From Acidobacteriota bacterium (GTDB taxonomy: Bacteria; Acidobacteriota; Terriglobia; Terriglobales; Acidobacteriaceae): DNA of 46,544 bases. A model generated the notes under the pieces. The model did not search any database and was not told the origin of the DNA. It saw only the letters and a program-made list of their open reading frames with translations. Position 1 is the first letter of the stretch; each line of letters opens with the position of its first letter. The DNA is taken from positions 1-46,544 of the forward strand of contig JAJXWS010000018.1 in NCBI GenBank assembly GCA_021781495.1, read 5' to 3'. Position numbers and translations under genes: made by a program. Positions 1,737 to 21,510 of this stretch are shown here, piece after piece.

Positions 1737-2700
1737 GGCTACTCCGAACACGGCCGACAACTCCGTTCTGCTGGAGGGATTGGTGAAGCGCTTCGGCAAG
1801 TTCACTGCGGTGGACGGCATCAGCCTGACAGTGCGGAGGGGCGAGGTGTTTGGATTTCTGGGGCCGAACGGTGCGGGAAAGTCCACCACGATTCGCATGC
1901 TGTGCGGACTGCTGAGACCCACGGCGGGCCGCGCTGTGGTGGCGGGCTATGATGTGGCGCGCGATCCGGAGGCAGTGCGACAGCACATCGGCTACATGTC
2001 GCAGCGATTTTCGCTCTACAACGATTTGAAAGTGATGGAAAACCTGCGGCTCTTTGCGGGGCTCTACAGCGTGCCGCAGCGCGTGCTGCGCGAGCGGATG
2101 GACTGGGCCCTTGCGATGGCCAACCTGGAAGGCAAGGAAGACCTGATCACCGGCACGCTACCGGGGGGATGGAAGCAGCGCCTGGCGCTGGGCTGCGCTG
2201 TGCTGCACAAGCCGCCGATACTCTTTCTGGATGAGCCGACCTCCGGCGTTGATCCGATTGCGCGGCGACAGTTCTGGGACCTGATTCACGCGATGGCCGC
2301 CGAGGGCGTAACCGTGTTTGTGACGACGCACTACATGGAGGAAGCAGAGTATTGCAATCGACTGTCGCTGATCTATCGCGGCAGGATGGTTGCGCTTGGA
2401 ACGCCCTCAGAGCTGAAGCGCGACGGCATGCACGGAGAATTGCTGCTGGTGGACTGTACGCCGCTTGGCCCGGCACTGGAGCTGCTGCAATCTGCACCGG
2501 CGGTGCTGGATGCGGCAATCTTTGGCAGCGCATTGCACCTGGTGGTGGAGGATGCGGCTTCGGCGATTCCGCTGCTGAAGCAATATCTTGCAGCCAACAA
2601 CGTAGATGTGCAGCGCATGGAGCGAATTCATCCAACGCTGGAAGATGTGTTTGTGTCGTTAACCACGGGGCACGGCGCGGCCGAGGAGCACAAGGCATGA
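1729..2700 (+). CDS. ABC transporter ATP-binding protein (like YbhF C-terminal half)
   Basis: I place the start at GTG 1729, 8 bp downstream of AAGGGGG (1715-1721), giving 323 residues; the frame is open further upstream, but that stretch is coding for the previous gene in another frame. Walker A is GPNGAGKST at residues 45-53 (Lys51) and Walker B ILFLDEP at 164-170. The ABC signature is LPGGW (144-148) rather than LSGGQ, a substitution reminiscent of the second ATPase half of RbbA/YbhF-type proteins. In E. coli the two halves are one protein (YbhF); here they are separate genes. The end overlaps the first permease by ATGA. Confidence 0.93.
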   Translation: MAEATPNTADNSVLLEGLVKRFGKFTAVDGISLTVRRGEVFGFLGPNGAGKSTTIRMLCGLLRPTAGRAVVAGYDVARDPEAVRQHIGYMSQRFSLYNDLKVMENLRLFAGLYSVPQRVLRERMDWALAMANLEGKEDLITGTLPGGWKQRLALGCAVLHKPPILFLDEPTSGVDPIARRQFWDLIHAMAAEGVTVFVTTHYMEEAEYCNRLSLIYRGRMVALGTPSELKRDGMHGELLLVDCTPLGPALELLQSAPAVLDAAIFGSALHLVVEDAASAIPLLKQYLAANNVDVQRMERIHPTLEDVFVSLTTGHGAAEEHKA

Positions 2701-3830
2701 ACTGGATGCGGATGCTGGTGATGGCGAAGAAAGAGGTGATGCAGATTCTGCGCGACTCGCGCAGCCTGATGATCGTCATCGTGATGCCCGCGATTCTTGT
2801 GCTGCTGTTTGGCTACGGCGTGAATCTGGATCAAAAGCGGATTCCTGTCTATGTGTGGAACCAGGATGGAAGCCAGCAGAGCCTCGACCTTGTGTGGCGA
2901 TTCAAGGCCAGCGAATACTTCAGGGTGGCGGCGGAAGTGGACAATGAGAAGGCCCTGGCGCGCGCGCTCGACAACGGCGACGCGCGCATCGCCATTGTCA
3001 TCCCGTGGAATTTTGATCACCGGCTGCAGACGGGAGGCCGCGTTGCCGTGCAGGCGCTGGTGGATGCCACGGACGACAACACGGCTAACCTGGCAATGGG
3101 CTATGCGCAGGCTGTTGTGCAGAGCTACTCCGCGAACGTGCAGGTGGCGTGGATGAATCAGCGCGGGCTTGCAATGCAGGCTGCTCCGGTGAGTGTGGAT
3201 ACGCGCACGTGGTACAACGAGGACCTTGAGAGCAGCGCATTCATCATTCCGGGAGTGCTGGCACTGGTGATGTCGGTGATCGGTGCGTTTTTAACATCGC
3301 TGACCATTGCGCGCGAGTGGGAGCGCGGCACCATGGAACAGTTGATATCGACGCCGGTGAGCGCGCTGGAGATCATGTTTGGCAAGCTGATTCCCTACTT
3401 TGTACTGGGCATGGGAGACACGGTTGTCGCGGCATTGATCGCCATTTACTGGTTTCACGTTCCCTTCCGCGGATCGTTTGGAACGCTGCTGGCAAGCTCA
3501 GCGATGTTCCTGGTGGTGGTGCTTTCGCTGGGATTTTTTATCTCAGTGATTGCCAAGAGCCAGTTTGCCGCAAGCCAGATAGCGCTGCTGGTAACGTTTC
3601 TGCCTGCATTTCTGCTATCAGGATTTCTGTTTGCGATTGAGCAGATGCCCAAGCCACTGCAGGTGATGACGCACATACTGCCGGCGCGCTACTACGTCTC
3701 AGTACTGAAGAAGATCTTTTTGAAGGGCACGCCTGCGCTGATGCTGTATGCAGACCTGATTCCGCTGGCTGTGTTCTCCGTGGTACTGGCACTGCTGGCA
3801 ACACGCAGCTTTCACAAGAGACTGATGTGA
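2697..3830 (+). CDS. ABC-2 type permease (YbhS-like)
   Basis: A 377-residue membrane protein. The ATG at 2697 overlaps the preceding stop (ATGA), which fixes the start although the frame is open far upstream. Topology is typical of ABC2_membrane_3 permeases: one N-terminal membrane segment (about residues 25-42), a large extracytoplasmic domain to about residue 180, then five hydrophobic segments in the C-terminal half. The EWERGTMEQLISTPVSALEI region is the cytoplasmic coupling loop characteristic of the family. It should form a heterodimer with the next gene product and be powered by the two upstream ATPases. Confidence 0.9.
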   Translation: MNWMRMLVMAKKEVMQILRDSRSLMIVIVMPAILVLLFGYGVNLDQKRIPVYVWNQDGSQQSLDLVWRFKASEYFRVAAEVDNEKALARALDNGDARIAIVIPWNFDHRLQTGGRVAVQALVDATDDNTANLAMGYAQAVVQSYSANVQVAWMNQRGLAMQAAPVSVDTRTWYNEDLESSAFIIPGVLALVMSVIGAFLTSLTIAREWERGTMEQLISTPVSALEIMFGKLIPYFVLGMGDTVVAALIAIYWFHVPFRGSFGTLLASSAMFLVVVLSLGFFISVIAKSQFAASQIALLVTFLPAFLLSGFLFAIEQMPKPLQVMTHILPARYYVSVLKKIFLKGTPALMLYADLIPLAVFSVVLALLATRSFHKRLM

Positions 3831-3842
3831 GGTAAGGACGCG

Positions 3843-4976
3843 ATGTGGTCACGCTTGAAACAGATGCTCATGAAAGAGTTCATCCAGGTGTTTCGCGACA
3901 AGCGTACACGCTTCATCCTCATCATTCCGCCTATTGTGCAGATGTTGGTGTTTGGGTATGCGGCGACGTATGAGATTCGTCATGTGCCGATGGCCGTCCT
4001 GGATCTGGACCAGAGCCAGGAGAGCCGGGATCTGATTTCGCGCTTCACCTCCAGTCCGTACTTTGACGTGGAGCGGCAGGTAACGTCTTCGCGGCAGCTG
4101 GACGATCTGATTGAGCAGGGCAATGCAACTGTAGCGATGGAGATTCATGCGGGCTTTGCACAGAAGCTGCGCAAGGGCGAGACCGCCCCGGTGCAGGTGA
4201 TTGTGGATGCGACCAACTCCAACACCGCACTGATTGCATCCGCATACATTACGCAGATTGCCCTGGGATTTGCCCGCAGCTATCAGCAGGACTGGATTGG
4301 CCGCGTTGCGCCGCAGATTACGCAGGTGGTGCCCAGCGTGGAGTTAGAGCCTAGGCCGTGGTACAACCCCAACCTGAGCAGTCGCTGGTTCTTTGTGCCC
4401 GGCGTTATCGGGAGCCTGACGCTGGTGCTGGTGATTACGCTGACGGCATTTGCCGTGGTCCGCGAGCGCGAACTGGGCACACTGGAGCAGATGATGGTGA
4501 CGCCTATTCGTCCAGTGGAATTCATCCTGGGCAAAACGCTGCCCTTCTTCCTTATCGGAGTATTTGATGTTTCGCTGATTGCGGCTGTGGGTTCGCTCTG
4601 GTTTCAAGTGCCTTTTCGGGGCAGCCTTGGTGTGCTGGCTTTGGGCGCAGTGCTCTTTCTGCTGTGCATGCTCGGCGTTGGTCTGCTGATTTCGACCGTG
4701 TCTTCCAATCAGCAGCAGGCCATGGTGACTGCGTTCTTCTTTATCATGCCGGCGGTGACCTTCTCCGGCTTCGGCTTTCCCATCAGCACCATGCCGATGT
4801 GGCTGCAGTATCTGACCTATCTGAGCCCGCTGCGATATTTTCTGGTGGTGCTGCGTGGAACCTATCTGAAGGGCGTTGGCATTGATGTGCTGTGGCCGCA
4901 GATGGCGGCCATGGGCGGCTTTAGCATCCTGCTGCTCACGGTGGCCATCCTACGCTTCCACAAGGCTCTAGATTGA
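3843..4976 (+). CDS. ABC-2 type permease (YbhR-like)
   Basis: A 377-residue paralogue of the preceding permease, starting at ATG 3843 shortly after a GAGGTAAGG ribosome-binding region. It has the same plan: an N-terminal membrane segment around residues 23-40, an extracytoplasmic domain, and C-terminal membrane segments, with the coupling motif ERELGTLEQMMVTPIRPVEF. It is the last gene of the exporter operon; only 22 bp separate it from the convergent amylase gene, leaving little room for a terminator. Identical length and topology to its neighbour suggest the pair arose by duplication and acts as a heterodimer. Confidence 0.9.
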   Translation: MWSRLKQMLMKEFIQVFRDKRTRFILIIPPIVQMLVFGYAATYEIRHVPMAVLDLDQSQESRDLISRFTSSPYFDVERQVTSSRQLDDLIEQGNATVAMEIHAGFAQKLRKGETAPVQVIVDATNSNTALIASAYITQIALGFARSYQQDWIGRVAPQITQVVPSVELEPRPWYNPNLSSRWFFVPGVIGSLTLVLVITLTAFAVVRERELGTLEQMMVTPIRPVEFILGKTLPFFLIGVFDVSLIAAVGSLWFQVPFRGSLGVLALGAVLFLLCMLGVGLLISTVSSNQQQAMVTAFFFIMPAVTFSGFGFPISTMPMWLQYLTYLSPLRYFLVVLRGTYLKGVGIDVLWPQMAAMGGFSILLLTVAILRFHKALD

Positions 4977-4998: not shown

Positions 4999-7518
4999 TC
5001 AGTTCTGCCAGGCCACGGCGACTGCACCGACGCCGGAAGCCGGAACCGAGTACAGATGATTGGCGCCGTTTTCCCACGTTACGCTGCCGTCTGCATGCAG
5101 GATGAGGAATTTGAACTGCACTGCCGCGGACGTTGGAAGAGACACGGTCAACAACCCGCTTCCAGCGGATGGAATTGCTGCAGGGCCTTCTGCTCCGTTC
5201 CAGGTTGTTGACCAGTTGCCCAGTTCCGAAAGGTTTCCGGCAAGCATCAGCACGTCCGTGCTGGCCATGGATGGAACTCCGCTGACGCTAAAGTCCACGG
5301 GGATGAGCGGGGCTGTGCTTACCTGAAATGGAGCAGCATTCGAGGTGGCGGTTCCCTGCGTGACCGCTACGGTTGTCGCGCCGGGCGCGATGGACGGAAC
5401 AGAGACTGTTATCTGTCCATCCGTCCAGGCTGTGATCGTGGCTGGCACAGCAGTGGATCCTTCCATGAAGTTGACCGATCCGCTTGCGGAGCCAAAGCCG
5501 GCACCGCTGATGGTGACTGTGGCCCCGGGATTGGCGACCCGTGGCGTGACGCTGCCGATGGATGGCGGAACGCTGCCCGCTGACACCCAGACGGAGACGC
5601 TGCGATGCGGAAGCGTGAAGCTTGCAACGGCATTGTTGCCGCCGGCGACTCCGCCTACCGAGATGCCTGCGCCGCCCATGGTCTGCGCCAGATAATCCGC
5701 ATACGTGCCGGGAGGAAGATTGCTGTAGAGTCCGCTGATGGATTGGTCATTTGTGCTGCTTTTGTTGATGGCGATGAGAACGATGTTGGAACCAAGCTGA
5801 CGCTCATAGATGTACACATCATCGTTAATCCATCTCTGCTTCATGGTTCCGTACGCTATAGCTGGATTTGCAGCGCGCAGGGAGGCCAGGTATTGGATCA
5901 GCAGAACGGCATCGGTTGAAGCAAAGCTCGTCATCGCATTGCGATTGTAGGGATCCGCGCCGCCGTCTGTGTCGTTGTGCAGATATTGCTCGTCGCCGTA
6001 GTAAAGCACCGGCACACCGCGGCACGTAAGCAGAAAGCTGATGGCCTGCTTGATGGCCATGCGATCGGCTCCGATCGACTGGATGCGTGGATTGTCGTGA
6101 TTGTCAAAGAACGTGACGAGGTCGTTGGGCTGCAGAAAGGCCTCGGCATTCCCGCTAGAGGGGCCCGCATCTTCCAGTGTCAACTCGTTGTCAATTTCGT
6201 AGAAGCTCTTGTTCGAACCGAACACGTCGACGAGCTGGTAGTAGAGCGGGTAATCGAGCAGGTTCAACCCGCTTGCATTTGCGAATTTCACGGAGTCTGG
6301 ATAAAGCGTATCGCCCGAACCCTCTAGCCACTCGCCAAAGACGAATGGGCGGGATGAGGCTGTGGGAAGGCTTGCGGACGCCTGCCAGTTGGCTACCGCA
6401 TTTTCAAGGCTGTATTCCCAACCCCAGTTCACATGCTTTACGGCATCAAGACGGAATCCATCTGCGCCGTGCGCAAGAAACTGTGTCACGGCATTCTTCA
6501 GATACTGGTCAACCCATGGATTTGTCTGATCGAGATCGGCCAGCCCGAGAAGCGTGTCGTACTGCAACTGGTACCGATCGTTGTAGTCACTGATATTCGG
6601 ATTGTGATGGTAGTAGGGTGTTGCGCTCGTGTCGCCTGCATAGTTGGTAATGAACGTTCCATTGTCGTAGAGCGATCCGTTTTCGCCGGCAGCAATGGGA
6701 TTGGTGTGATTGGCCACGAAGTCGACGAAGACCTTGATGCCGACGGCATGCGCGGCGGTCACAAGATTGTCGAATGCCGTCCAGGAGTTTGTGTTGTCGC
6801 CGAAGTGCTCATCGATCTGCTTCATGTCGCGCGGCCAATAGCCGTGGTAGCCTGTCTCTCCGTTGCTGGAGCCTGCGTTGACGCGGATGTTGTCGACCGG
6901 AGGCGAGATCCAGATGCCTGCAACTCCCATGGATTTGAGGTAAGTGAGCTTCTGTTGAATGCCGGCTAGATCGCCACCCCAGTAAAGATGCCAGTCAGAG
7001 GGGTTCGTGAACCCATTGGGATCGAAGAGGCCCGGGCTCTCAGCGGGATCGTCGTTGGTTGTATCACCGTTGAAGAATCGATCGGTGACGATCTGGTAGA
7101 GGAACCCCTGATGAATATCGGCGATGGCCGCAATGGGTGGAGCCGCTGGAAAGTTGATGGTGTAATGAGCCTGCGCGATGCTGCTTGTGGTGTAGCCGCT
7201 GGCGATGGCAAGCGCCTGAATGGTAGTGGTGGCGGCGACGGGGATGGGCGCGGTGTACGTCTGAGAGGTCGTGGTTGGCGCGGATCCATCCGTGGTGTAG
7301 TGAATCTGTGCGCCGGGAGTGGCATCCGAAAGGGCAACACTCTGGAGCGTGGTGTACGTTCCTGCGCTCACGCTGAAAGTTGGCGTGGAGGCCTGCGGCG
7401 TGGGCGGGGGCGTGTTGCTGCCCGCGCCGCCACCTCCGCAGCCTGCAAGAAAGATTGCGGCAATGCTGAGCCATGAGAGAGCGTGGGAACGGTTGCTGCT
7501 GAGCATGCTCGCCAGCAT
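4999..7518 (-). CDS. GH13 alpha-amylase-family lipoprotein with cyclodextrin glucanotransferase-like architecture
   Basis: 839 residues; the ATG at 7518 sits 6 bp after AGGAGA. A lipoprotein signal with lipobox LAGC (Cys27) indicates export and lipid anchoring. Domains: a chitobiase/hexosaminidase-C-like Ig fold (about 45-122), GH13 barrel (about 135-560), a short all-beta domain C, an IPT/TIG domain (about 655-735) and a CBM20 starch-binding domain (about 740-839). The expected catalytic residues are present: Asp358 (GFRLDAVKH), Glu396 (FGEWLEG) and Asp475 (FFDNHD). YQIVTDRFFNGD, GYHGYWPRD and GLNLLDY resemble CGTases and maltogenic amylases, as does the order A/B-C-IPT-CBM20. It probably attacks starch outside the cell or at the surface; whether it cyclises or only hydrolyses cannot be decided from sequence. 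Confidence 0.9.
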   Translation of the reverse strand: MLASMLSSNRSHALSWLSIAAIFLAGCGGGGAGSNTPPPTPQASTPTFSVSAGTYTTLQSVALSDATPGAQIHYTTDGSAPTTTSQTYTAPIPVAATTTIQALAIASGYTTSSIAQAHYTINFPAAPPIAAIADIHQGFLYQIVTDRFFNGDTTNDDPAESPGLFDPNGFTNPSDWHLYWGGDLAGIQQKLTYLKSMGVAGIWISPPVDNIRVNAGSSNGETGYHGYWPRDMKQIDEHFGDNTNSWTAFDNLVTAAHAVGIKVFVDFVANHTNPIAAGENGSLYDNGTFITNYAGDTSATPYYHHNPNISDYNDRYQLQYDTLLGLADLDQTNPWVDQYLKNAVTQFLAHGADGFRLDAVKHVNWGWEYSLENAVANWQASASLPTASSRPFVFGEWLEGSGDTLYPDSVKFANASGLNLLDYPLYYQLVDVFGSNKSFYEIDNELTLEDAGPSSGNAEAFLQPNDLVTFFDNHDNPRIQSIGADRMAIKQAISFLLTCRGVPVLYYGDEQYLHNDTDGGADPYNRNAMTSFASTDAVLLIQYLASLRAANPAIAYGTMKQRWINDDVYIYERQLGSNIVLIAINKSSTNDQSISGLYSNLPPGTYADYLAQTMGGAGISVGGVAGGNNAVASFTLPHRSVSVWVSAGSVPPSIGSVTPRVANPGATVTISGAGFGSASGSVNFMEGSTAVPATITAWTDGQITVSVPSIAPGATTVAVTQGTATSNAAPFQVSTAPLIPVDFSVSGVPSMASTDVLMLAGNLSELGNWSTTWNGAEGPAAIPSAGSGLLTVSLPTSAAVQFKFLILHADGSVTWENGANHLYSVPASGVGAVAVAWQN

Positions 7519-7549
7519 TGCTTATCTCCTGAAGTGTTGGAACGGCTGG

Positions 7550-9400
7550 CTAACGTACGGAATACAGAGTGATGGACTCCGCAGGTTCTTCAATGTGCAC
7601 TTGATCGTTGCGGATGGCAGGTGCGCTTCCGTCGATCGGCGCGAGACGATGAAACTCCGTGCATCCGGCAAGAGCGGTCTGCTGCATGGGCAAATCGATC
7701 GGCGCGCTCTTCTCCGCTTTATTCGCAACGATGAGGACGCGCTCGCTGGAATGATCCGCGGAACATCCTGTGTCCACCGGCGTGCGAAGAAATGCGAATG
7801 TATTGTTGGTTGCCAGCAGATTCTGTTCGAGCCCGGATTGCAGCACCGGATTGCTGGATCGCAAGGCAAGCAGACTTGAAGTCCAGGTGAAAAGATCCTG
7901 CTCCGCGCGCGTGCGGCCGGATGCAGCGAAGGCGCTGTGCACATCTCCTGCGAAGCCGCCGGGAAAGTCATGACGGTTGTCCGGATCGGCGCCGCCGGTC
8001 ATGCCAATCTCGTCGCCGGAGTAGATTTGCGGCGTGCCGCGCAACGTGGCCAAAAGGCCGAGACCCAGCTTGAGCCTGGGAATCGATCCGTGGGCATCGG
8101 TGAGAAAGCGGGTGGTGTCGTGATTGCCAATGAAGAAAACGAGCCGCTCGGGATGCGGGTAAAGCGCATCCTGGCGAAGAACGGAGGCCAGTTCCGTCAT
8201 GGGCTTGTCCAGCGTGAGCACATCGCGCAGCGTGAAGTAGACGGGGAAATCAAAAGGCGTGTCGAGGCCCGTATCAATCCCTGCGTGTGCAACTCCGCCG
8301 GCAAAGAAGGATGTAATCTCCGGGTCGCGATGAAAGACTTCGCCAACCGTGGTGACGTGCGGATAGACGCGATGCAGAGTGGCGTGGAAGTCCTGCCAGA
8401 AGGAACGATCCACATAGGAGAATGTATCGAGCCGAACGCCGTCCACATTCGCAGTCTCAATCCACCACAGCGCATTCTGAATCAAGTACTGCGCTACGAG
8501 CGGATTTTGCTGGTTGAGGTCGGGCATGGCGTCAGTAAACCAGCCGTGCGTTATGTCATTCCAGGCACGCTGCGGAGCGTGCGGATCTACAAGCTGATAG
8601 AAGTCATGCTGCGCCTGCTGATGATGCTCGAGCGTGCCATGGAACCAGTCGGGCGCTGGCGGATCGAGCACCCACGGATGCTGCACACCGATGTGATTGG
8701 GAACGAGATCGAGGATGAGCTTGATGCCGCGCGCATGGAGCGCGTCTGATAGATGGCGGTAATCCTGCAGTGTGCCGAAGTGTGAATCGACGGCATAGAG
8801 GTCTGTTGCAGCGTAGCCGTGATAGGAGTCGTGCATGTTTGCGTTGGAGACGATGGGCGTGGTCCACAGCGCTGTGATGCCGAGTTGCTTCAGATAGTCG
8901 AGATGCTGCTCGATGCCGGCGAAGTCTCCGCCGTGCCAGCCACGCGATGCCGCGCGGTCATAGCCGGGCTGATTGTTGCCGGGGTCGCCGTCTGCAAAGC
9001 GATCGGTCATGATGAGATAGATGACGTCAGCGGAGGAGAAGCCGGCGTGCGCCTTTGGATCCTGCGAGCGAGCCTGAAGCGCGTAGCTATGCTGCGCCTG
9101 ACCGGCGTTGTTGCTGGCCGCGATCTGCAGGGTTTGCGGCGAGGCATTGGCAGTGCTGAGCCAGACGAAGGCCCAGTGGCCGTTTGGCGAAGACTGCGTG
9201 CGGACGATCGTTACATGCTTGCCCGTGATGCGGAAGCGTGCGTGATCCAGATGCTCACCGTGCAACAGCAGCATGGGATCGGGCATGCCGGCCCACCAGC
9301 CGGGCGGGTCGATCTTGTCAATGCGCGGCGCCTGTGCACATGCATCGGGCAGAAGAAAGCACAGACAGAAAAGCGCCAGAAAACGGGACAGCAACCGCAT
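7550..9400 (-). CDS. Exported GH13 cyclomaltodextrinase/neopullulanase-like enzyme
   Basis: I choose ATG 9400, which opens a clear signal peptide (MRLLSRFLALFCLCFLLPDA, cleavage near residue 23) and follows a GGAG site; an upstream extension in frame adds 24 residues that do not look like an export signal. The mature protein starts with a cyclomaltodextrinase N-terminal-type domain (PPGWWAGMPDPMLLLHG, residues 32-48), then a GH13 barrel. Catalytic residues: Asp325 (GVRLDTF), Glu354 (VGEVFH), Asp428 (GNHDTTRF). No starch-binding module is present and the Cys near the signal end lacks a proper lipobox, so a soluble periplasmic enzyme acting on imported cyclodextrins or malto-oligosaccharides is likely. 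Similar in role to SusA of Bacteroides. It lies 31 bp downstream of no gene but 31 bp before the upstream end of the next amylase. Confidence 0.88.
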   Translation of the reverse strand: MRLLSRFLALFCLCFLLPDACAQAPRIDKIDPPGWWAGMPDPMLLLHGEHLDHARFRITGKHVTIVRTQSSPNGHWAFVWLSTANASPQTLQIAASNNAGQAQHSYALQARSQDPKAHAGFSSADVIYLIMTDRFADGDPGNNQPGYDRAASRGWHGGDFAGIEQHLDYLKQLGITALWTTPIVSNANMHDSYHGYAATDLYAVDSHFGTLQDYRHLSDALHARGIKLILDLVPNHIGVQHPWVLDPPAPDWFHGTLEHHQQAQHDFYQLVDPHAPQRAWNDITHGWFTDAMPDLNQQNPLVAQYLIQNALWWIETANVDGVRLDTFSYVDRSFWQDFHATLHRVYPHVTTVGEVFHRDPEITSFFAGGVAHAGIDTGLDTPFDFPVYFTLRDVLTLDKPMTELASVLRQDALYPHPERLVFFIGNHDTTRFLTDAHGSIPRLKLGLGLLATLRGTPQIYSGDEIGMTGGADPDNRHDFPGGFAGDVHSAFAASGRTRAEQDLFTWTSSLLALRSSNPVLQSGLEQNLLATNNTFAFLRTPVDTGCSADHSSERVLIVANKAEKSAPIDLPMQQTALAGCTEFHRLAPIDGSAPAIRNDQVHIEEPAESITLYSVR

Positions 9401-9493
9401 GAGGATCTCCGAGAGAGAGCGAGCGTAGGTGCAGCGGACAGAGTACCGCTCCGGCACTTGACTCACAACCAAAACATTATCTTGTGGTGATGC

Positions 9494-9521
9494 CCCGCGG
9501 CAGCCAGGCGACTGCCGCGGG
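9494..9521 (-). terminator. Perfect 10-bp stem hairpin downstream of the TonB receptor gene
   Basis: CCCGCGGCAG (9494-9503) and CTGCCGCGGG (9512-9521) are perfect inverted arms with an 8-nt loop. It lies about 30 bp beyond the receptor stop and before the amylase start. There is no U-tract on the minus strand, so it may be an attenuating hairpin between receptor and enzyme genes or an mRNA 3'-end stabiliser rather than a classical intrinsic terminator. Confidence 0.5.
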
Positions 9522-9552
9522 TTGGTTCAGTGGCTTGTCCTTCGCCAGGAGA

Positions 9553-12500
9553 CTAGAACGTGAGACGTCCACCGAACTCGAGTTGGCGCTCAGTGTATTC
9601 GCGAGTTCCATCGATCGCGCCAAAGTTGCTTAGCGGGTTGGAGTTGTTCACGCCGGAGTCCAGGTAACCGTTGGGGTTGGTGAACTGCGGCGTGTTGAAG
9701 ACGTTGTAGGCCTGGAAGCGGAACTCGAACTTGATCTTCTCTGGCAGGGTGAAGCTCTTGAAGAGAGCAGCATCCATGCCGCGATAGCCAGGCCCGTGGA
9801 GCACGTTGCGATTCAGGCTGCCGGGACGAATGGGAATGCCAGCGGCCGTGACCGGCGGAGGCGTAAACGATCCGGTGGCGAACCACTGATGCAGCGTCTT
9901 GGGATAAGAGACTCCCTTGACGATGTCCACGCGGTTGGTAAACGTGGAGTTGATGATGTTGCCGTTGGGATCGGTTCCCTTGTTGGTGGTGAGATCGAAC
10001 GGCGTGCCGGTTTGCAGCGTGACCACGGTGTCGAACTGCCAGCCGCCTATGGCTTCATCCAGAGCGAGCGGGATGTTGGAGCCGAAGGCCTTGCCACGCC
10101 CGAAGGGCAGCTGTGCCAGCCCGCTGAAGCTGAAGGTCTGGCGCTGGTCCTGGTCGGCGCTGCCGTAGTTGGCGGCCATGTCGATGCCCGAGGCGGTGAT
10201 GAACATATTCTGCCCCGGGCCGTTGGCGCCGGTGGAGAAGGCACCGTTGGAGTTATCGAAGGTATGCGACCAGGTGTAGGCGGCCGTAAGCTGCACGCCC
10301 TGCAATGCGCGGCGATTGAGGAAGACCTGCAGAGCGTTGTAGTTGCCTGAGCCGATGTTCGCGCCCTCCGTGATGGAGCCGCGCTTGGGATAGAGTGTGG
10401 TGGTGCTGTTGAGCACGGGCCCGTTGATATTGAACCACGTGGAGAGACGATCGGACTTGTCGCCTACGTAGGCTGCGTTGATGGAGGTGTCCTTGTCGAG
10501 CTGGCGCTCCAACTGCAGGTTCCACTCCATGACGCGCGGGGTCTTGTTCGTAGGCAGAACCGCGAGCAGAGCTGCGTTGACCGGGTTGGAGCGATCGACC
10601 GTGGAGCCGAAGATCGGCAGCGGAAGCGCGCTGGTGGCGTTCAGATTGTTGTTGTCGCCCGCAGGGCCCTGACCGGTGAAGGTGATGCGGAAAGCATTGC
10701 CCGCCGTGTACTGCTCATAGCCGTTGAAGTCAGGATTGTTGGAGAGCTGGTTGCCCACGCCTCCACGGTCGAGGAAGTAGAAGATGCCGAAGCCGCCGCG
10801 CAGGGACGTCTTGCCATCACCGAGCAGATCGTAGGCAAAACCAAGGCGCGGAGCGAAGTTGGTCTTGTCTGTCTGGATGATGCTGCGGCTTACGCCATTG
10901 CTGCCGGCCACGACGAGGGTCTGCGTGTTGAGGTTGAAGTCAGACTGCTCGTTATGGATTTCGTAGGGGTTGGTATAGAGGTCATAGCGGATGCCAAGGT
11001 TGAGCGTGAGGCGACGATTGAGCTTCCAGTCGTCCTGCGCGTAGTAGCCCGTTTCCCAGTTGACGGTGTCGAAGTACTGGCTGGCAACGCCGATGGCGTA
11101 GTCTGTGAAGCCGGCCAGCAGCTCAGACTGTTCAAAGCCGGTGAAGCGGCCGGTGCCGGGATAGTTGAAGCCGCCGATGTTGAAGTAGCCCTTGGAGTCC
11201 GGCGTGTTGAAGAAGTCTACGCGGCGATGAATGATGGAGGCTCCAACCTTGAAGGAGTGGGCTCCACGCACGATGGAGACGGAGTCTGCGAACTGGTTGG
11301 TATGCTGCGGCACCTCGTACGGACCCCAGTCGCCGGTGTACTCCAGCTCATAGCCGTTGCCGCCGATGAGTGCGCCGCCGCCGAGAAGCGCGTTGCGGTT
11401 GGCATTCAGGATTCCAAGGTTCGCGGAGACCGCGGTCCCCTCCATGGGATTGATGTACGCGTAGAACGGCCGCACATAGCCGTAGCGGAACTCGTTGACG
11501 ATGTGCGGGCTGAAGGTGTGCGTCCAGCCGGCTGCCCCGCCGCGGGGATGGTTGACGTTGGCGCCTGTGCCGTAGCCGGCAGGCAGATTGGGAAATTCGC
11601 TGCTCTTGGGATTCTGGAACTGGCCGTAGCTGTAGCGGACGAAGAGCAGGTCACGGCTGCTGACGTTGGCGTCGAGACGGATGTCGAAGTCGGTCTCGTT
11701 CACCGTTTCTTTCTCGTGGGTCTGGTAGTTCTGCACAAGGCCGTTGTGCGCACCCAGGCCGGGCGTGGGCAGCGGGAAGGCCTGCAGGTACTTCAACGCA
11801 GCTGGATTGGCGCGGCTGGTGGGGATGATGTTGCCCTGGAACGGCGCGCACGTGAGGGGATCGTAGATGGCTCCCGGCACGGCGCCCGTAACCGTAGCGC
11901 AACCGGTGGTGGACGCATACTGCGCAGGCGTGGTGGTCAGCGGATTGGGGTCAGCGAGGAGCTCAGAGAAGTCGCCGGTACGCTCAAGCGCTGTGGGCAC
12001 CGTAACCATGCCGGAGTTGCCGGGTAGCGCTTCGCGCACGTCAGCCAAATCGCCGAAGGCGAAGAGCTTGTTGCGCAGAATGGGGCCACCGACGGCAAAG
12101 CCGTACTGATGCTTGCGGTAGGTCGTGGTCTTGCTGCCGGGATTGAAGTAGGCGTTCTGCGAGTTGTTAGCGTCGAAGGCCTGGTCGCGATAGAACTCGT
12201 AGGCCGAACCGTGAATGCTGTTGGTGCCGCTCTTGATGGATGTCTGAATGATAGCGCCGCCGGCCTTGCCGAACTCGGCGGGGGCCATGGTGGTGTTGAC
12301 GCGGAATTCCTGAGTGGCCTCAATGGGCGGAACGAAGACGATGGTGTTGACGAGGCCGTCGTTGTTGTCAACGCCGTCCAGCTCGTAGTTGTTGGCCTGC
12401 TGACGAAGACCGTTGGTGGAGAGGGCCGTGCCGCCCACATCGAAGAAGCGCGAGAACTCGACGTTGCCGTTGACACCGGAGACTGCCGAACCATACGCGC

Positions 12501-13032
12501 CGCGCGTCATGCCCGGAGCCAGCAGGGCAAGCTGCGTGAAGTTGCGGCCGTTGAGCGGAAGCTGCGTAATCTGGTCAGACTGGATGACGGCGCCGGTGGA
12601 GGACGTGGACAGATCGACGATGGGAGCAGCGTCCGTCACCATCACCGACTCATTGACCGCGCCGGGCTTGAGCTTGAAGGCAAGAGTTACGACCTGGGAG
12701 ACCTGAAGGACAAACGGCTGGTTGACGGTCTCAAATCCGGCCGCCTTGACGGTTGCCCGGTAGTTGCCGCGAGGCAGAGCCTCAAAGTGGAACAGGCCGG
12801 CAGCATCGACGGCGGCGGACCGGGTGAGGCCGGTGTCTGTATTTGTAATTTGAACAGAAGCGGTGGAGACTACCGCTCCCGTCGTGTCCTGTACGGTGCC
12901 GCGAATGCTGCCGAGATCAGACTGTGCGAACAGCCGGGGCAGCAACAGGCAGGACAGCAGAGCCACCAGGACCGCGGCCGAATAACGCAGGCGACGGTGC
13001 CCGGTTGGCATGGGCATGAATCCCTTGAACAT
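9553..13032 (-). CDS. Oar-like TonB-dependent outer-membrane receptor with carboxypeptidase-regulatory domain
   Basis: 1159 residues from ATG 13032, preceded by GGAGG at good spacing; a TTG 15 bases upstream overlaps that site and is unlikely. Signal peptide about residues 1-37 (LLPRLFAQ end). Residues about 40-125 form a carboxypeptidase-D regulatory-like fold (IRGTVQDTTGAVV start). A plug domain follows (LPLNGRNFTQLALLAPG; YELDGVDNND), and the rest is rich in alternating aromatic beta-barrel strands ending in LEFGGRLTF, the terminal aromatic signature of outer-membrane proteins. Such receptors are numerous in Acidobacteria. Position next to two GH13 enzymes suggests it takes up glucans or cyclodextrins, but no SusD-like partner is present. 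Energy would come from TonB-ExbBD, not encoded here. Confidence 0.92.
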   Translation of the reverse strand: MFKGFMPMPTGHRRLRYSAAVLVALLSCLLLPRLFAQSDLGSIRGTVQDTTGAVVSTASVQITNTDTGLTRSAAVDAAGLFHFEALPRGNYRATVKAAGFETVNQPFVLQVSQVVTLAFKLKPGAVNESVMVTDAAPIVDLSTSSTGAVIQSDQITQLPLNGRNFTQLALLAPGMTRGAYGSAVSGVNGNVEFSRFFDVGGTALSTNGLRQQANNYELDGVDNNDGLVNTIVFVPPIEATQEFRVNTTMAPAEFGKAGGAIIQTSIKSGTNSIHGSAYEFYRDQAFDANNSQNAYFNPGSKTTTYRKHQYGFAVGGPILRNKLFAFGDLADVREALPGNSGMVTVPTALERTGDFSELLADPNPLTTTPAQYASTTGCATVTGAVPGAIYDPLTCAPFQGNIIPTSRANPAALKYLQAFPLPTPGLGAHNGLVQNYQTHEKETVNETDFDIRLDANVSSRDLLFVRYSYGQFQNPKSSEFPNLPAGYGTGANVNHPRGGAAGWTHTFSPHIVNEFRYGYVRPFYAYINPMEGTAVSANLGILNANRNALLGGGALIGGNGYELEYTGDWGPYEVPQHTNQFADSVSIVRGAHSFKVGASIIHRRVDFFNTPDSKGYFNIGGFNYPGTGRFTGFEQSELLAGFTDYAIGVASQYFDTVNWETGYYAQDDWKLNRRLTLNLGIRYDLYTNPYEIHNEQSDFNLNTQTLVVAGSNGVSRSIIQTDKTNFAPRLGFAYDLLGDGKTSLRGGFGIFYFLDRGGVGNQLSNNPDFNGYEQYTAGNAFRITFTGQGPAGDNNNLNATSALPLPIFGSTVDRSNPVNAALLAVLPTNKTPRVMEWNLQLERQLDKDTSINAAYVGDKSDRLSTWFNINGPVLNSTTTLYPKRGSITEGANIGSGNYNALQVFLNRRALQGVQLTAAYTWSHTFDNSNGAFSTGANGPGQNMFITASGIDMAANYGSADQDQRQTFSFSGLAQLPFGRGKAFGSNIPLALDEAIGGWQFDTVVTLQTGTPFDLTTNKGTDPNGNIINSTFTNRVDIVKGVSYPKTLHQWFATGSFTPPPVTAAGIPIRPGSLNRNVLHGPGYRGMDAALFKSFTLPEKIKFEFRFQAYNVFNTPQFTNPNGYLDSGVNNSNPLSNFGAIDGTREYTERQLEFGGRLTF

Positions 13033-13337
13033 CACTGTTTCCTCCAAGAAATGCTTGATTGCTGGGTACGAATCGCGACTCCCGGATGCGACCGCTACGT
13101 GTCACTCCGGGTAGCCACAGACGAAGAAACGCTTCGGCGACAGGGATGGTCAATCAACAGCGGGCCAATTCGCGCTCAATTTACACTCATCGAATATTTC
13201 GTTTATTTTCATATTTTTATGGGTACATATCTCCTGCCGGATGGTGCCATTTGGGCGCCATCCATCCGTAGATGGAGAGGGAATACATTCCTTCTGGCTT
13301 ACACTACGGTGCAGGGATCAGTCAGGGCCCGGTGACC
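13033..13337. promoter_or_regulatory. Divergent intergenic region between TonB receptor and CadC-like regulator
   Basis: About 305 bp without a gene. The stretch 13175-13235 is strikingly AT-rich against a GC-rich background and should hold the divergent promoters, but I cannot assign convincing -35/-10 pairs. An imperfect inverted repeat, GGATGGTGCC (13239-13248) and GGCGCCATCC (13254-13263), forms a 10-bp stem with one G-U pair and a 5-nt loop, about 75 bp before the regulator start. It could be an operator or a leader hairpin. Confidence 0.5.
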
Positions 13338-15488
13338 ATGGAGCAGGACAACGGCGGCGCAAGACGGGTGCAGTTTGGCCTTTTTGAAGCTGACTTGAAG
13401 AGCGGCGAACTGCGGCGCTCCGGCGTACGAGTCCGCCTGCAAAGCCAGCCCTTCAAGCTGCTGGTGGCCCTGCTGGAGCATCCGGGCGAGGTGGTTTCCC
13501 GGGAGACGCTGCAACACCTGCTGTGGGGCAGCGACACCACGGTGGACTTTGACCATAGCCTGGGCATCGCGGTAAACAAGCTGCGCGATGCTCTGGGCGA
13601 CTCGGCCGAGAATCCGCGCTTTGTGGAGACTCTGGCCAAGCGCGGCTACCGGTTCATTGCCCCGGTCAAGACGATCGACCCATCCCCTGCGCCAGCTTCG
13701 GCCGAGGCGGCCACGCCGGATTTGCCCGCTGCCCCAACCAGCCGGAGCAACCGGAATCGATGGCGCTGGGTGGCGGGCGCGCTGGCGCTGGTGATTCTTG
13801 CCCTGGCGGCGATTCTGTTCCAGCGCCCGCAGGTGCTTAAACCCTATCGGATTGTGCAGGTTACGTACTCCGGGCATGTGCTGGCAAATGATCTGGACGT
13901 GCAGAGCGTCTCCAGCTCGGCCAGCGATGGCGCGCGGCTCTACTTTTCGCAGATGAACGGCGGCAACCCCGCGCTGGCGGTTGCGCTGGCGGCCAACGGC
14001 GAGATCAGCTATATCGATCTGCCGTCGGAGATTGGGGCTCCGCTGATTGGGTCGCTTTCTCCGGATGGGTCCAAGCTGATTGTTCACAGCCACTTGCAGG
14101 CCGACCCGGAGCAGCCGCTGTGGATTGTGCCCACACTGGGCGGGGACGCGCTGCGGGTGCCGAATGTGGTGGCGCACGATGCGACCTGGATGCCGGATGG
14201 GCGACATCTGCTGGTGGCCAACGGAAATGACCTGGCGATTGTGGGAACCGATGGGAGCGATCCACATAGCTTTTTGAAAACACAGGGATTGGGATTCTGG
14301 CTGCGCTGGTCGCCGGATGGCAGCCGCCTGCGCTTTACCGTGCGGGATACGAAGAACCTGACGCTGTCATTGTGGGAGGCGGATGCGGATGGAAGTCATC
14401 TGCATCCGCTGCTGCAGGGCTGGAGTCAGCCGGCCAGCGAGTGCTGCGGAAGCTGGACCCCGGACGGCGAATTCTATGTCTTCCAGTCGTGGCACTCGGG
14501 GCACAGCGAGATATGGGCGTTGCAGGAGCACCCCTGGTACAGGAAGGACCGCGAACCACGGCAGATTACGAATGGCCCGCTGGACTATGAGGCTCCCAGC
14601 ACGTCTCCGGGGAGCCACCGGATCCAGTTTATCGGGGTGGACTGGCAGATTGAGCTGCTGCGGGCGACGCCTAAATCAAATGCTTTCCTTGCGTTAGAGA
14701 GCAATTTGAGCACGGCGGCGCTGGCGGTTTATTCGGCGGATGGACAGTGGGTTGCGTGGCTGAACGCCTCGGACGGCTCGCTGTGGCGCAGCCGGGCCAA
14801 TGGCACGGAGCGGCTGGAGCTGACCACGCCGCCGTTTCGCATCTTCAATATGAAGTGGTCTCCTGACCACAGGCAACTGGCGCTGATGGGAGAGGAGCCG
14901 GGCAAGCCGTGGAGGGTGTATCTGATGGATGCAGACGGCGGCAAGCTGACGCCCGCGCTGAATGAGGACCGCAACGAGGCCGATCCGGACTGGGCTGCAG
15001 ACGGCCAGACGCTGGTCTTTGGGCGTCCGCCGGACCGCATGGATATGGGCCAGCCCAAGGCCATTCATTTGTTGAACCTGCAGACGCACCAGGTGACGGA
15101 GGTTCCGGGATCAGCCGGGTTGTTCAGCCCGCGATTCTCCCCGGATGGGCGGTATATCGCCGCAATTCGCCTTGACCAGAAGGCGCTGATGCTGTTTGAC
15201 CGGACAACGGAACGCTGGACCACGCTGGCGGTTCACGGCGTGGGCGACCCGACGTGGTCGCATGACAGCCGGTTTGTCTACTTCCAGGATTTTCTGGAAC
15301 AGGGGAAGCCGATCTACCGCGTGGCGATCCCGGCAGGGCCGGTGGAGCAGGTGGCAACCATCCGCAGCCTTCAGCCGATTGCCGCGACCGACTACCGGCT
15401 TATCGGGCTGGCTCCGGGCGACCTGCCCATGGTGAGCGCGCGCACCTCCAGCGTGAATCTGTATCGCGTGGACCTGGACGAGCACTAA
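13338..15488 (+). CDS. Membrane-anchored winged-helix (CadC-like) regulator with extracytoplasmic PD40 beta-propeller
   Basis: 716 residues from ATG 13338 (AGGG about 10 bp upstream); a longer in-frame start at 13272 adds 22 residues with no matching domain. Residues 10-110 are an OmpR/PhoB-type winged helix (VRLQSQPFKLLVALLEHPGE; VNKLRDALGD; GYRFIAPV). A Pro/Ala linker leads to one membrane segment (about 143-162), and residues about 200-710 contain repeated TolB/PD40-type blades (SPDGSKL, SPDGSRLRF, SPDHRQLAL, SPDGRYIAA). The plan is that of CadC/ToxR one-component regulators: cytoplasmic DNA binding, outside sensing. It is divergent from the TonB receptor, so it is the best candidate to regulate the glucan locus. 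Such fusions are common in Acidobacteria; ligands are unknown. Confidence 0.85.
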   Translation: MEQDNGGARRVQFGLFEADLKSGELRRSGVRVRLQSQPFKLLVALLEHPGEVVSRETLQHLLWGSDTTVDFDHSLGIAVNKLRDALGDSAENPRFVETLAKRGYRFIAPVKTIDPSPAPASAEAATPDLPAAPTSRSNRNRWRWVAGALALVILALAAILFQRPQVLKPYRIVQVTYSGHVLANDLDVQSVSSSASDGARLYFSQMNGGNPALAVALAANGEISYIDLPSEIGAPLIGSLSPDGSKLIVHSHLQADPEQPLWIVPTLGGDALRVPNVVAHDATWMPDGRHLLVANGNDLAIVGTDGSDPHSFLKTQGLGFWLRWSPDGSRLRFTVRDTKNLTLSLWEADADGSHLHPLLQGWSQPASECCGSWTPDGEFYVFQSWHSGHSEIWALQEHPWYRKDREPRQITNGPLDYEAPSTSPGSHRIQFIGVDWQIELLRATPKSNAFLALESNLSTAALAVYSADGQWVAWLNASDGSLWRSRANGTERLELTTPPFRIFNMKWSPDHRQLALMGEEPGKPWRVYLMDADGGKLTPALNEDRNEADPDWAADGQTLVFGRPPDRMDMGQPKAIHLLNLQTHQVTEVPGSAGLFSPRFSPDGRYIAAIRLDQKALMLFDRTTERWTTLAVHGVGDPTWSHDSRFVYFQDFLEQGKPIYRVAIPAGPVEQVATIRSLQPIAATDYRLIGLAPGDLPMVSARTSSVNLYRVDLDEH

Positions 15489-15767: not shown

Positions 15768-17159
15768 ATGAGTTGCATGATCACCCCAAGGACACTTCTC
15801 CCGATGCGAATGCGCTTTCGTCGAACGCATGGTCTGGCCTTGATGCTATTGCTGGCCGGCTCGGCTGCCATTGCTCAGGAGCCGCTGACACTGCAGCAGG
15901 CCATCCAGCAGGCGCTGGGGCAGAGCCCGGATGCAGCCGTGGCTCGCGCCGACAGCGAAGAGGCAAAGGCCAATGCTTCCCTGGCCCGCACCCAACTGTT
16001 TCCACAAATGAACTTTACCGAGGATATGTCGCGGGGCAACGACCCCGTGTATGTCTTTGGCGCCAAGCTGCGGCAGCACCAGTTTACGCAGGCAGACTTT
16101 GCCGAGAATGCGCTGAACCGGCCGCTGCCGATTGGCAACTTTGCCACGCGCTTCTCCGGCTCGTGGATGGCCTTTGACACGTTCCGCACGCAGAAGACGA
16201 TTCGCAGCGCGGACCTGATGCGCAAGAGCGCGGACTCCTCAGCGAAGGCCGTGAACCAGAAGATCGTCTTCGATGTGGTGCAGGCGTACCAGTCCGTGCT
16301 GTACGCCGAGCGGCAGATTGCCGTTACGCAGCACGAGCAGGAGACGGCGGCGGCGCTGATGTCTTCCGTGCAGGACCGCGTGAAGGCGGGGCTGGCGGTG
16401 GAGTCGGACCTGATGTCGGCCCAGGTGAACGTGGCGGCGCGCAAGCAGGAGTTGATTGCCGCGCAGGGCGGGCTGGAGCTGGCCTGGGCGCAGTTGCGCG
16501 TGGCCATGGGCGCTCCCAACCTGGCAGAGACCCAGCTGAAGGCGATTGAGCCGCGTACATTTCCTGCGACAACGCTGGATGAGGAGCTGACGACAGCAGC
16601 CAGGACGCGCCCGGACCTGATGGCACTGGGGCAGGCGCAGTCGGCGCAGGCGGCGGCGGTGAGTGCGGCCAAGCTGAGCTTTGGCCCGCATGTGAGCGCC
16701 TACGGCAACTGGGAGGAAGACCGGCCCTCGTTTGGCAGCTCCGGCGGCAACAACTGGGTGGCCGGAGTGCAGGTGGGCATTGACATATTGCCCCTGGGCA
16801 AGCGCGCCCAGCTGGCGCGGGAGACTGCGGCCAAGCAGCGCGTGGATGCGCAGATGGCGTCGTATCAGCAGAACATCCGGCTGCAGGTGAGCCAGGCGCA
16901 CATTCAGCGGCAGACGGCGCAACTCTCACTGGAGACGGCGCGCGCCGCAATGGATCAGTCCGCGGAGAGCCTGCGCATCCTGCGCAATCGCTATGGCGCG
17001 GGGTTGGCGACGATGACGGACCTGCTGAGCGCGGAAGATGCACAGCGCCAGAGCCAGACCAACTATTGGCATGCGGTGTACGGCAATGCCGTGGCGTATG
17101 CCCAACTGTTATTCGCGACAGGGACACTGACTCCTGATGCGGCGGAGGTTTTGCAATGA
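15768..17159 (+). CDS. TolC/OprM-type outer membrane efflux protein
   Basis: 463 residues from ATG 15768, 6 bp after AAGGGG. An N-terminal signal peptide ends near SAAIAQ. Two outer-membrane-efflux repeats follow, starting with EPLTLQQAIQQALGQSPD, with long Ala/Gln-rich helices and the second repeat near residues 285-455 (RNRYGAGLATMTDLLSAEDA is the usual late motif). It should be the trimeric outer-membrane duct of the tripartite pump. It is the first gene of the operon and overlaps the adaptor gene by ATGA. A palindromic site directly upstream suggests the whole operon is repressor-controlled. Confidence 0.93.
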   Translation: MSCMITPRTLLPMRMRFRRTHGLALMLLLAGSAAIAQEPLTLQQAIQQALGQSPDAAVARADSEEAKANASLARTQLFPQMNFTEDMSRGNDPVYVFGAKLRQHQFTQADFAENALNRPLPIGNFATRFSGSWMAFDTFRTQKTIRSADLMRKSADSSAKAVNQKIVFDVVQAYQSVLYAERQIAVTQHEQETAAALMSSVQDRVKAGLAVESDLMSAQVNVAARKQELIAAQGGLELAWAQLRVAMGAPNLAETQLKAIEPRTFPATTLDEELTTAARTRPDLMALGQAQSAQAAAVSAAKLSFGPHVSAYGNWEEDRPSFGSSGGNNWVAGVQVGIDILPLGKRAQLARETAAKQRVDAQMASYQQNIRLQVSQAHIQRQTAQLSLETARAAMDQSAESLRILRNRYGAGLATMTDLLSAEDAQRQSQTNYWHAVYGNAVAYAQLLFATGTLTPDAAEVLQ

Positions 17160-21200: not shown

Positions 21201-21510
21201 CGGCATCATCGTGAGGAACTCGATCATCCTGGTGGACTTCATCGAGCTGCGACGCAGCCAGGGAGTGGAACTGGGTCAGGCAGTGATTGACGCAGGTGCG
21301 ATTCGCTTCCGCCCGATGCTGCTGACGGCAGCCGCCGTTGTGGTGGGCGCAAGCGTGATTCTGACGGACCCCATCTTCCAGGGACTTGCCGTATCGCTGA
21401 TTGCCGGGGCCATTGCATCCACGTTCCTTTCGTGGCCCACGATTCCGATTCTGTACTACATCGTTCACTCGCACACCAAGCAGGATATTTCCTGTGAATC
21501 TGAGAAATAA
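18265..21510 (+). CDS. RND-family efflux transporter permease (AcrB/CzcA superfamily)
   Basis: 1081 residues, standard length for the family. It has the two-fold RND plan: TM1, a large periplasmic loop, TM2-TM6, then TM7, a second loop and TM8-TM12. The TM4 proton-relay motif is [15 protein letters not shown] with Asp426 and Asp427, as in AcrB. The N-terminal region has PREEDPQI and [16 protein letters not shown], typical of the family. Proton-driven export of drugs or other small molecules is likely; the paired Asp and lack of CzcA-style metal motifs argue mildly against metal export. Followed after 14 bp by the DUF2892 gene in the same operon. Confidence 0.94.

Follow-up and report, generated by a model that had tools for sequence, protein, structure and literature searches.

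In a stretch of 46,544 nucleotides from an Acidobacteriaceae-related genome (the window), four neighbouring genes, here termed REG, P3, P2, and P1, look like a starch/maltodextrin uptake locus without SusD, judging by their predicted products. The model regarded as probable is that of a Sus-like utilisation locus of Acidobacteriaceae, in which the enzyme P1, tethered to starch by its CBM20, would cut alpha-1,4-glucan extracellularly, most likely hydrolysing it to linear malto-oligosaccharides. These would be imported by the TonB-dependent receptor P3 and cleaved in the periplasm by P2, which may open rings as well. An inner-membrane step would presumably follow (no sugar importer of the inner membrane is among the four locus genes), and the breakdown could be completed by GH31 and GH13 enzymes that the genome encodes elsewhere. 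The divergently transcribed REG probably serves as substrate sensor and controls the operon. The initial annotation of this DNA had proposed one SusD-less route composed of an extracytoplasmic amylase-type enzyme, a TonB receptor, and a periplasmic GH13 enzyme, which is supported, and cyclodextrin as the substrate, which is not supported.

Acidobacteria are abundant in soil, and we know of no assigned cargo for most of their TonB receptors. A receptor lineage located beside one GH13 enzyme in many genomes suggests maltodextrin as a specific cargo that can be tested, within a design that parallels Sus but lacks SusD. Uptake of cyclodextrin or maltodextrin by acidobacterial TonB receptors is not treated in the literature found, judged by titles and abstract openings.

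The three neighbouring minus-strand genes described earlier are present as ORFs (P1, 4999-7518; P2, 7550-9472; P3, 9553-13047) and are borne out by the Pfam domains of their products. The ORFs of P3 and P2 are open up to TTG codons at 13047 and 9472 (640 aa for P2); ATG codons at 13032 and 9400 give genes of 9553-13032 and 7550-9400, the latter encoding a signal peptide (read by eye). The fourth gene of the locus, absent from the initial annotation, is REG (13272-15488, plus strand, probable start near 13338), whose product shows an OmpR-type DNA-binding domain (Trans_reg_C) and a PD40 beta-propeller in Pfam. The intergenic region between the divergent P3 and REG genes (13033-13337) is presumed, from the gene order, to be the promoter region. 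No operator motif shared among loci was found in this region: the five closest loci, as cut, have no 9-mer in common, a weak negative given the short stretch for locus L002 and the differing cuts.

SusD was sought with PF07980 and PF14322, and these two families gave zero matches in the whole genome (95.75% complete), with a positive Bacteroides control; for both families, the missing SusD homologue noted before is thus confirmed genome-wide. PF10566 (GH97) likewise gave no match in the genome. The host encodes TonB_C proteins (profile matches), and GH31 is represented by five matches over the cut-off; a weak PF00128 match (31.8 bits) lies on C123, where the Pfam scan was limited to 1e-8.

P3 (9553-13032, minus strand) comprises CarboxypepD_reg and OMP_b-brl_4 (PF25183, E 6.4e-212), which we take to mark an Oar-like receptor. 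Its AlphaFold model (mean pLDDT 84.5) displays the plug and beta-barrel fold of TonB-dependent receptors, to which its Foldseek matches belong, in agreement with the earlier description. The top match is FusA (E 1.7e-29, TM 0.50 over the query, rmsd 8.6), and a SusC ranks 21st. In the tree, P3 and all 49 further P2-linked receptors examined share a single branch, and this lineage is separated from 17 additional receptors of the host genome with an SH-aLRT of 100. P3 is 40-55% identical to the P2-linked receptors, 90% to that of locus L001, and 23-32% to the 17 other own-genome receptors. An uptake route without SusD is supported; the lineage of the receptor is one associated with a P2-type GH13 enzyme. 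It is very improbable that P3 serves another nutrient and adjoins the enzymes by chance: PF25183 receptors are indeed abundant in the genome (31 matched stretches, 19 near full length, including that of the window), but the tree sets this lineage apart from the 17 others of the genome, and 49 of the 64 P2 loci carry a P3-type receptor immediately upstream of P2 (missing there in 15).

A divergent REG homologue is found beside the receptor in 35 of these 64 loci, and REG-P3-P2 forms a recurrent core. The full order REG-P3-P2-P1 was seen in four loci only, those of the window, L001, L002, and L009. The stretches of 46 of the 50 P2-linked receptors harbor no P1-type gene, and in 52 of 60 family genomes with P2 no P1 homologue appears at E<=1e-100, a count that compares two match lists and includes some incomplete genomes. 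Greedy gene calls misplace some genes; P1 of L002 and P2 of L003 were lost there and recovered by BLAST. Among 20 flanking genes scanned, 13 are neither glycoside hydrolases nor sugar transporters, and the locus-adjoining genes include GH31 (L009, L055, L066) and another GH13 (L046, L090). A divergent 422-aa gene at L101 has no Pfam match. For the P1-only loci (L104-L114), neighbours were compared with the four window proteins only. Five neighbours of L012, a P1-type locus of the Lysobacteraceae, comprise one beta-lactamase, one CarboxypepD_reg protein, and three without a Pfam match at 1e-8, in greedy ORFs with possibly wrong frames.

P2 (7550-9400, minus strand) is a neopullulanase/cyclomaltodextrinase-like GH13 enzyme with the N domain Cyc-maltodext_N (PF09087) followed by GH13. 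Its PDB matches are 9DCQ (368 bits), the Flavobacterium CDase 1H3G (362 bits), and SusA (334 bits), which, along with the domains and the signal peptide read by eye, fits the periplasmic cyclomaltodextrinase-like enzyme proposed before. As far as the available text of PMC9781549 characterizes GH13_46 (Flavobacterium CDase, SusA), P2 itself shares the N domain, MPDLN in CSR-V, and the adjacent WW; among 65 sequences (P2 and relatives), CSR-V reads MPDLN in 7 and LPDLN in 40. P2 differs from this group in CSR-II, which ends in FSY rather than Tyr-x-Tyr, and in the main marker, a Glu right after the catalytic acid in CSR-III, which occurs in none of the 65; P2 has GEV at this site, as does 9DCQ.

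P1 (4999-7518, minus strand, 839 aa) starts with a lipoprotein signal (7438-7518; lipobox LAGC with Cys27, read by eye) and would be exposed at the surface. N-termini inspected in the same way show similar lipoboxes in L001 and L009 and a weaker one in L002. The Pfam order is CHB_HEX_C_1/Fn3_assoc, GH13 catalytic, Alpha-amylase_C, TIG, and CBM20 (5026-5304; PF00686, E 1.1e-12). According to Pfam and the model, this is the five-domain A-B-C-D-E order of CGTases (GH13_2), preceded by an additional N-terminal domain, with the catalytic A/B part at residues 142-521, TIG as domain D, and CBM20 as domain E. The earlier description as a lipoprotein with CGTase-like domain order and CBM20 is supported. 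The GH13 catalytic set is present in P1 (Asp358, Glu396, Asp475, Arg356).

Cyclodextrin as the substrate is weakly founded at the level of the active site. Three determinants of cyclisation are named in the accessible part of PMC8760340, an aromatic residue at position 195 and a +2 pair (Phe/Trp/Tyr) and (Phe/Tyr/Met). P1 keeps one of them, the H1 aromatic Tyr312, which fits the pair. Two are missing by alignment: Leu324 (6547-6549, minus strand) is found at position 195, where the initial annotation had pointed to the aromatic residue of CGTases, and Leu398 (6325-6327, minus strand) takes the place of Phe259. The P1 homologue of L003 (Terriglobia SRVP_26) retains aromatic residues at 183, 195, and 259. 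Position 195 is variable in the cassette clade, with Glu in two and Asp in one of the three other members. It is consequently unlikely that P1 is a CGTase making rings (with Leu195, gamma or larger ones) that P3 imports whole and P2 opens, a route examined by active-site alignment, tree, and distribution (residues 130-839 of P1 in the VIA-align examination) and disfavoured also by the absence of P1 from most loci. It is retained as a rival with regard to the CGTase domain order of P1, its lack of the Novamyl insertion (see below), and the proximity of P2 to the cyclodextrin-opening enzymes 1H3G and SusA. Moreover, engineered CGTases with Leu195 are described, in the portion of PMC6562119 at hand, as cyclising to a reduced but real extent, with CD8 and larger rings as products. 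In Bacteroides, growth on alpha-cyclodextrin does not depend on surface SusG; the authors infer entry via SusC, and both alpha- and beta-cyclodextrin are degraded by SusA (PMC11633381, in excerpt).

Regarding the preferred linear products of P1, Novamyl (the maltogenic amylase of Bacillus stearothermophilus, 1QHO) shares the five-domain layout. It ranks first among PDB entries in the sequence comparison, with 582 bits against 477 for the highest-scoring CGTase, and likewise in the comparison with the model, with Z 45.5 (rmsd 1.6) against Z 42.8. This says little about P1, because Novamyl is also the top match of L012 (581 versus 569 bits), which keeps Phe195, and of L011. A loop insertion before CSR-V is important for Novamyl-type maltogenic amylase; these five residues are present in 1QHO and absent in P1 and 25 relatives aligned there. 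P1 further differs from Novamyl by its lipid anchor and extra N-terminal domain, and the tree places Novamyl together with two CGTases and L010/L011 (100/100), apart from the four cassette P1 proteins on their long stem (0.9 changes per column).

This stem could point to a P1 drifting towards a starch-binding surface protein of weak catalysis, with a holding job like that of SusD/E/F. Changed equivalents of the acceptor-site residues Ala230, Lys232, and His233 in P1 of L009 (alignment) would agree with such a drift, as would the lipid anchor and N-terminal extension, which are seen in this four-member clade and absent from the remaining P1-type N-termini that were inspected visually. It is nevertheless quite improbable, as the equivalents of the catalytic Asp229, Glu257, Asp328, and Arg227 are kept in all four proteins (alignment). 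P1 and P2 look maintained, with a rough dN/dS, at synonymous sites near saturation, of 0.07-0.14 for P1 and 0.07-0.19 for both together.

Among known systems, the Bacteroides Sus is similar in its surface GH13 enzyme, TonB-type outer-membrane importer, and periplasmic neopullulanase, as far as outlined in PMC11633381. The window locus differs by the lack of PF07980/PF14322 and PF10566 (GH97) matches, a PF25183 receptor, a P1 of GH13_2 layout, and a Trans_reg_C-propeller regulator. The Xanthomonas XCC2469 CUT locus, likened here by its description in the available text of PMC1790865, harbors a TonB receptor beside starch enzymes, one of them annotated as CGTase, and SusD was not found according to that text; unlike the window locus, it includes alpha-glucosidases, a sugar transporter, and a repressor. 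XCC2469 is induced by maltose, and Caulobacter MalA is reported to take up maltodextrins (same source). The cym system of Klebsiella oxytoca also couples an extracellular enzyme of CGTase layout to downstream uptake, but there uptake runs through the porin CymA and an ABC importer (PMC8760340, in part), neither of which is among the four genes of the present locus. The earlier claim that a TonB/periplasmic version would be distinct is too strong in view of the Xanthomonas locus and the growth of Bacteroides on alpha-cyclodextrin.

The receptor slot is evidently exchanged between otherwise similar loci: of 33 pairs of loci that resemble each other in regulator and enzyme, 16 (three groups of loci) have receptors with no more than 52% identity. 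In the remaining 17 pairs (P3 >52%), the identity of P3 equals or exceeds that of REG in 12, counted from rounded values with one tie, and the five exceptions show P3 identities of 57-62%. Fast receptor evolution as the source of the mismatch is disfavoured because of these 12 pairs and because receptors are alike across loci (L009-L061, 77%; L044-L065, 82%; L002-L046, 68%). Between the window and L001, pS is 0.53 for P3, 0.70 for P1, 0.66 for P2, and 0.61 for REG (with an overlapping interval); the lower P3 value could be due to codon bias. Tentatively, the slot might act as an exchange cassette, in which regulator and enzymes stay constant and the TonB receptor is repeatedly replaced from one lineage, the allele setting per strain which alpha-glucan pieces are importable (by chain length, branched ones, or large rings from a Leu195-type GH13_2 enzyme). 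No paper on receptor exchange in such loci was found, judged by title. A fructan PUL of Bacteroides thetaiotaomicron is comparable, as its substrate use is determined by the divergent receptor pair that the locus carries; there, following the part of PMC5967196 at hand, SusC/SusD pairs differ between strains of one species and transfer experiments were performed, whereas here a single SusD-less receptor varies across the genera of a family, as known from sequence. Such exchanges represent natural swap experiments, with similar enzymes and regulator and a different receptor in related strains.

The window is one entire contig (C8) of a 3.6-Mb genome, and the three minus-strand genes described in the initial annotation were recovered at the positions given there (ORFs, Pfam). 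P1 (4999-7518) is, as had been proposed, a lipoprotein with CGTase-like domain order and a CBM20: it harbors a LAGC lipobox (recognized by eye) and the order A-B-C-D-CBM20 of CGTases and Novamyl (Pfam), preceded by an extra N-terminal domain (CHB_HEX_C_1/Fn3_assoc, Pfam). P2 (7550-9400, within an ORF reaching to 9472) starts with a signal peptide, recognized by eye, which is followed by the N domain of cyclomaltodextrinases and a GH13 barrel; P3 (9553-13032) comprises a CarboxypepD_reg domain and a PF25183 outer-membrane barrel. A regulator gene (REG, 13272-15488, plus strand; Trans_reg_C and PD40 propeller), absent from the initial annotation, was found as divergent neighbor of P3. By Pfam, plus-strand genes on either side of the locus (2700-4976 and 15768-21510) encode two permeases of the ABC-2 type and an outer-membrane efflux protein (OEP); the OEP gene is followed by 370-aa and 1081-aa ORFs, sizes that would suit an RND efflux set. 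Most likely, P1 cuts starch outside the cell, P3 imports the presumed cargo, malto-oligosaccharides, in a TonB-powered manner, P2, in the periplasm, degrades these further, enzymes of GH31 and GH13 complete the breakdown, and REG controls the locus; the export side and the inner-membrane step of the uptake route we infer.

The identity of P3 as a TonB-dependent receptor is supported by its AlphaFold model (58 sequences, mean pLDDT 84.5), whose structural matches are TonB receptors. FusA, which takes up ferredoxin, leads the list with a TM of 0.50 over the query, and a SusC ranks 21st. The genome contains 31 stretches matching PF25183, 19 of them near full length, and encodes TonB_C proteins. 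SusD had been declared absent, and neither PF07980 nor PF14322 gives a match across the genome. TonB carbohydrate loci lacking SusD are known from Xanthomonas and Caulobacter (PMC1790865); among the matches listed by searches of an open-access library, judged by titles and the beginnings of abstracts, no description of such a locus in Acidobacteria was found.

Sequence comparisons indicate that the TonB receptor, encoded between a similar regulator and a similar GH13 enzyme, is exchanged among loci, namely the window (9553-13032) and the related loci L001, L002, L009, L044, L046, L060, L061, L065, L070, L071, L078, and L085. Among the window, L001, L002, L009, and L044, REG is 70-78% and P2 67-75% identical, as is P1 (67-78%) among the four loci having it (all except L044); their receptors share 42-51% identity, apart from the window-L001 pair (90%). 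The receptors of L009 and L061 share 77% identity and those of L044 and L065 82%, with REG and P2 at just 52-54% in both comparisons; the L002 receptor shares 68% with that of L046 (REG 44%, P2 67%). A single clade for the receptors of the window, L001, L002, and L009 was rejected (24 receptors; lnL 1176 worse, AU p 1.7e-108). Where REG, P2, and P3 are all present (36 loci), pairwise identities correlate with r of 0.73 for REG-P2, 0.32 for REG-P3, and 0.41 for P2-P3, each exceeding 999 permutations, so that the receptor retains some shared history. REG-P2 linkage is imperfect too (exceptions L046 and L077). Among 33 pairs with REG at ≥65% and P2 at ≥60%, receptors are ≤52% identical in 16; these 16 pairs stem from three locus groups (nine from the window's group, six from L060/L061/L065/L070/L071, one being the pair L078-L085) and are not independent. 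A functional precedent is the fructan locus of B. thetaiotaomicron, where a divergent susC/susD pair alters substrate use (PMC5967196).

P1 is not a standard CGTase. Among PDB entries, Novamyl scores highest against both its sequence (582 bits; CGTases 477 bits) and its model (Z 45.5, rmsd 1.6; CGTases Z ≤42.8, rmsd ≥1.8). Alone this proves little, because Novamyl is also the top PDB match for L011 and for L012, which keeps Phe195, and because in the tree Novamyl groups with two CGTases, L010, and L011 (100/100), with P1 apart. When P1 and 25 relatives were aligned together with three reference enzymes, the Novamyl loop insertion occurred in none of the 26 proteins, and position 195 (CGTase numbering) was Phe or Tyr in 11 of them (two identical pairs counted twice). 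The aromatic residue expected there under the proposed CGTase-like role is missing in P1, where both 195 and 259 are Leu; in the cassette proteins of the three loci L001, L002, and L009, the residues are Glu, Glu, Asp at 195 and Leu, Asp, Asp at 259. PMC8760340 regards the aromatic residue at 195 as essential for cyclisation, together with the pair at +2. Against this, CGTases with Leu at 195 are reported to cyclise still, to a reduced extent and shifted to rings of ≥8 (PMC6562119), so that cyclisation by P1 is unlikely. The four cassette proteins retain complete catalytic residues and group together with 100/100 support, their shared stem being long (0.9). Their dN/dS, roughly 0.07-0.14 with synonymous changes close to saturation, suggests that they are maintained. 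In the acidobacterial P1-like enzymes of L019, L021, and L022, the conserved His that precedes the third catalytic Asp is replaced by Gln. Cyclodextrin formation would more likely be met with in L003 (Terriglobia), where receptor, P1-like, and P2-like genes lie in a row (6311-14143) and the P1-like enzyme keeps the equivalents of Trp183, Tyr195, and Tyr259 in the alignment.

Ring-only cargo for the receptor is likewise unlikely, because one and the same P1/P2 pair is served by three receptor lineages, whose nearest relatives (L055/L067/L075, L046/L071, and L061) lie in loci with no P1-type gene observed. In the tree, one branch (SH-aLRT 100) sets the 50 receptors examined that are linked to P2 apart from 17 others encoded in the window's genome, and 46 of the 50 come from stretches lacking a P1-type gene (some incomplete, e.g. 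L044), which ties the receptor to the substrate of P2, not to P1.

The nearest solved structures to P2 are 9DCQ (368 bits), the Flavobacterium cyclomaltodextrinase 1H3G (362), and SusA (334). The initial view of P2 as periplasmic and cyclomaltodextrinase-like stands; a specific pointer to cyclodextrin does not, since SusA-type enzymes degrade cyclodextrins and linear malto-oligosaccharides alike (PMC11633381). P2 is near GH13_46 and at most a candidate member, because it has MPDLN and WW but lacks a Glu next to the catalytic acid; PMC9781549 gives this Glu as the clearest hallmark of the subfamily, and none of P2 and its 64 relatives has it. Within these 65, LPDLN occurs in CSR-V of 40, WW in all, and FPY at the end of CSR-II in 56; they perhaps represent an unnamed GH13 subfamily. 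Genome-wide, PF00128 has five matches: P1, P2, a weak match, and two TreC/TreS- and glucosidase-like proteins scoring below the curated NCBIfam cut-offs (one model at 0.98 of its cut-off).

Among 200 family genomes, P2 homologues occur in 60 (E≤1e-60), P1 homologues in 13 (E≤1e-100), and both in eight (lists compared); wider sampling found P1 in 16 of 398 family and 6 of 396 phylum-drawn genomes, the window's own counted in each. For 64 P2 loci besides the window (60 fetched, four named), the gene immediately upstream of P2 encodes a P3-type receptor in 49 and not in 15, a divergent REG is present in 35, and a P1-type gene occurs in five (L001, L002, L003, L009, L076). The order REG-P3-P2-P1 is found in the window and its closest counterparts L001, L002, and L009. 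The 20 flanking genes scanned comprise three GH31 (L009, L055, L066), two GH13 (L046, L090), one MFS transporter, one GH44, and 13 other or unmatched genes, including a PfkB sugar kinase. In L101 (14740-17371), a divergent 422-aa gene lacking a Pfam match occupies the usual place of REG, adjoined by an MFS sugar transporter gene.
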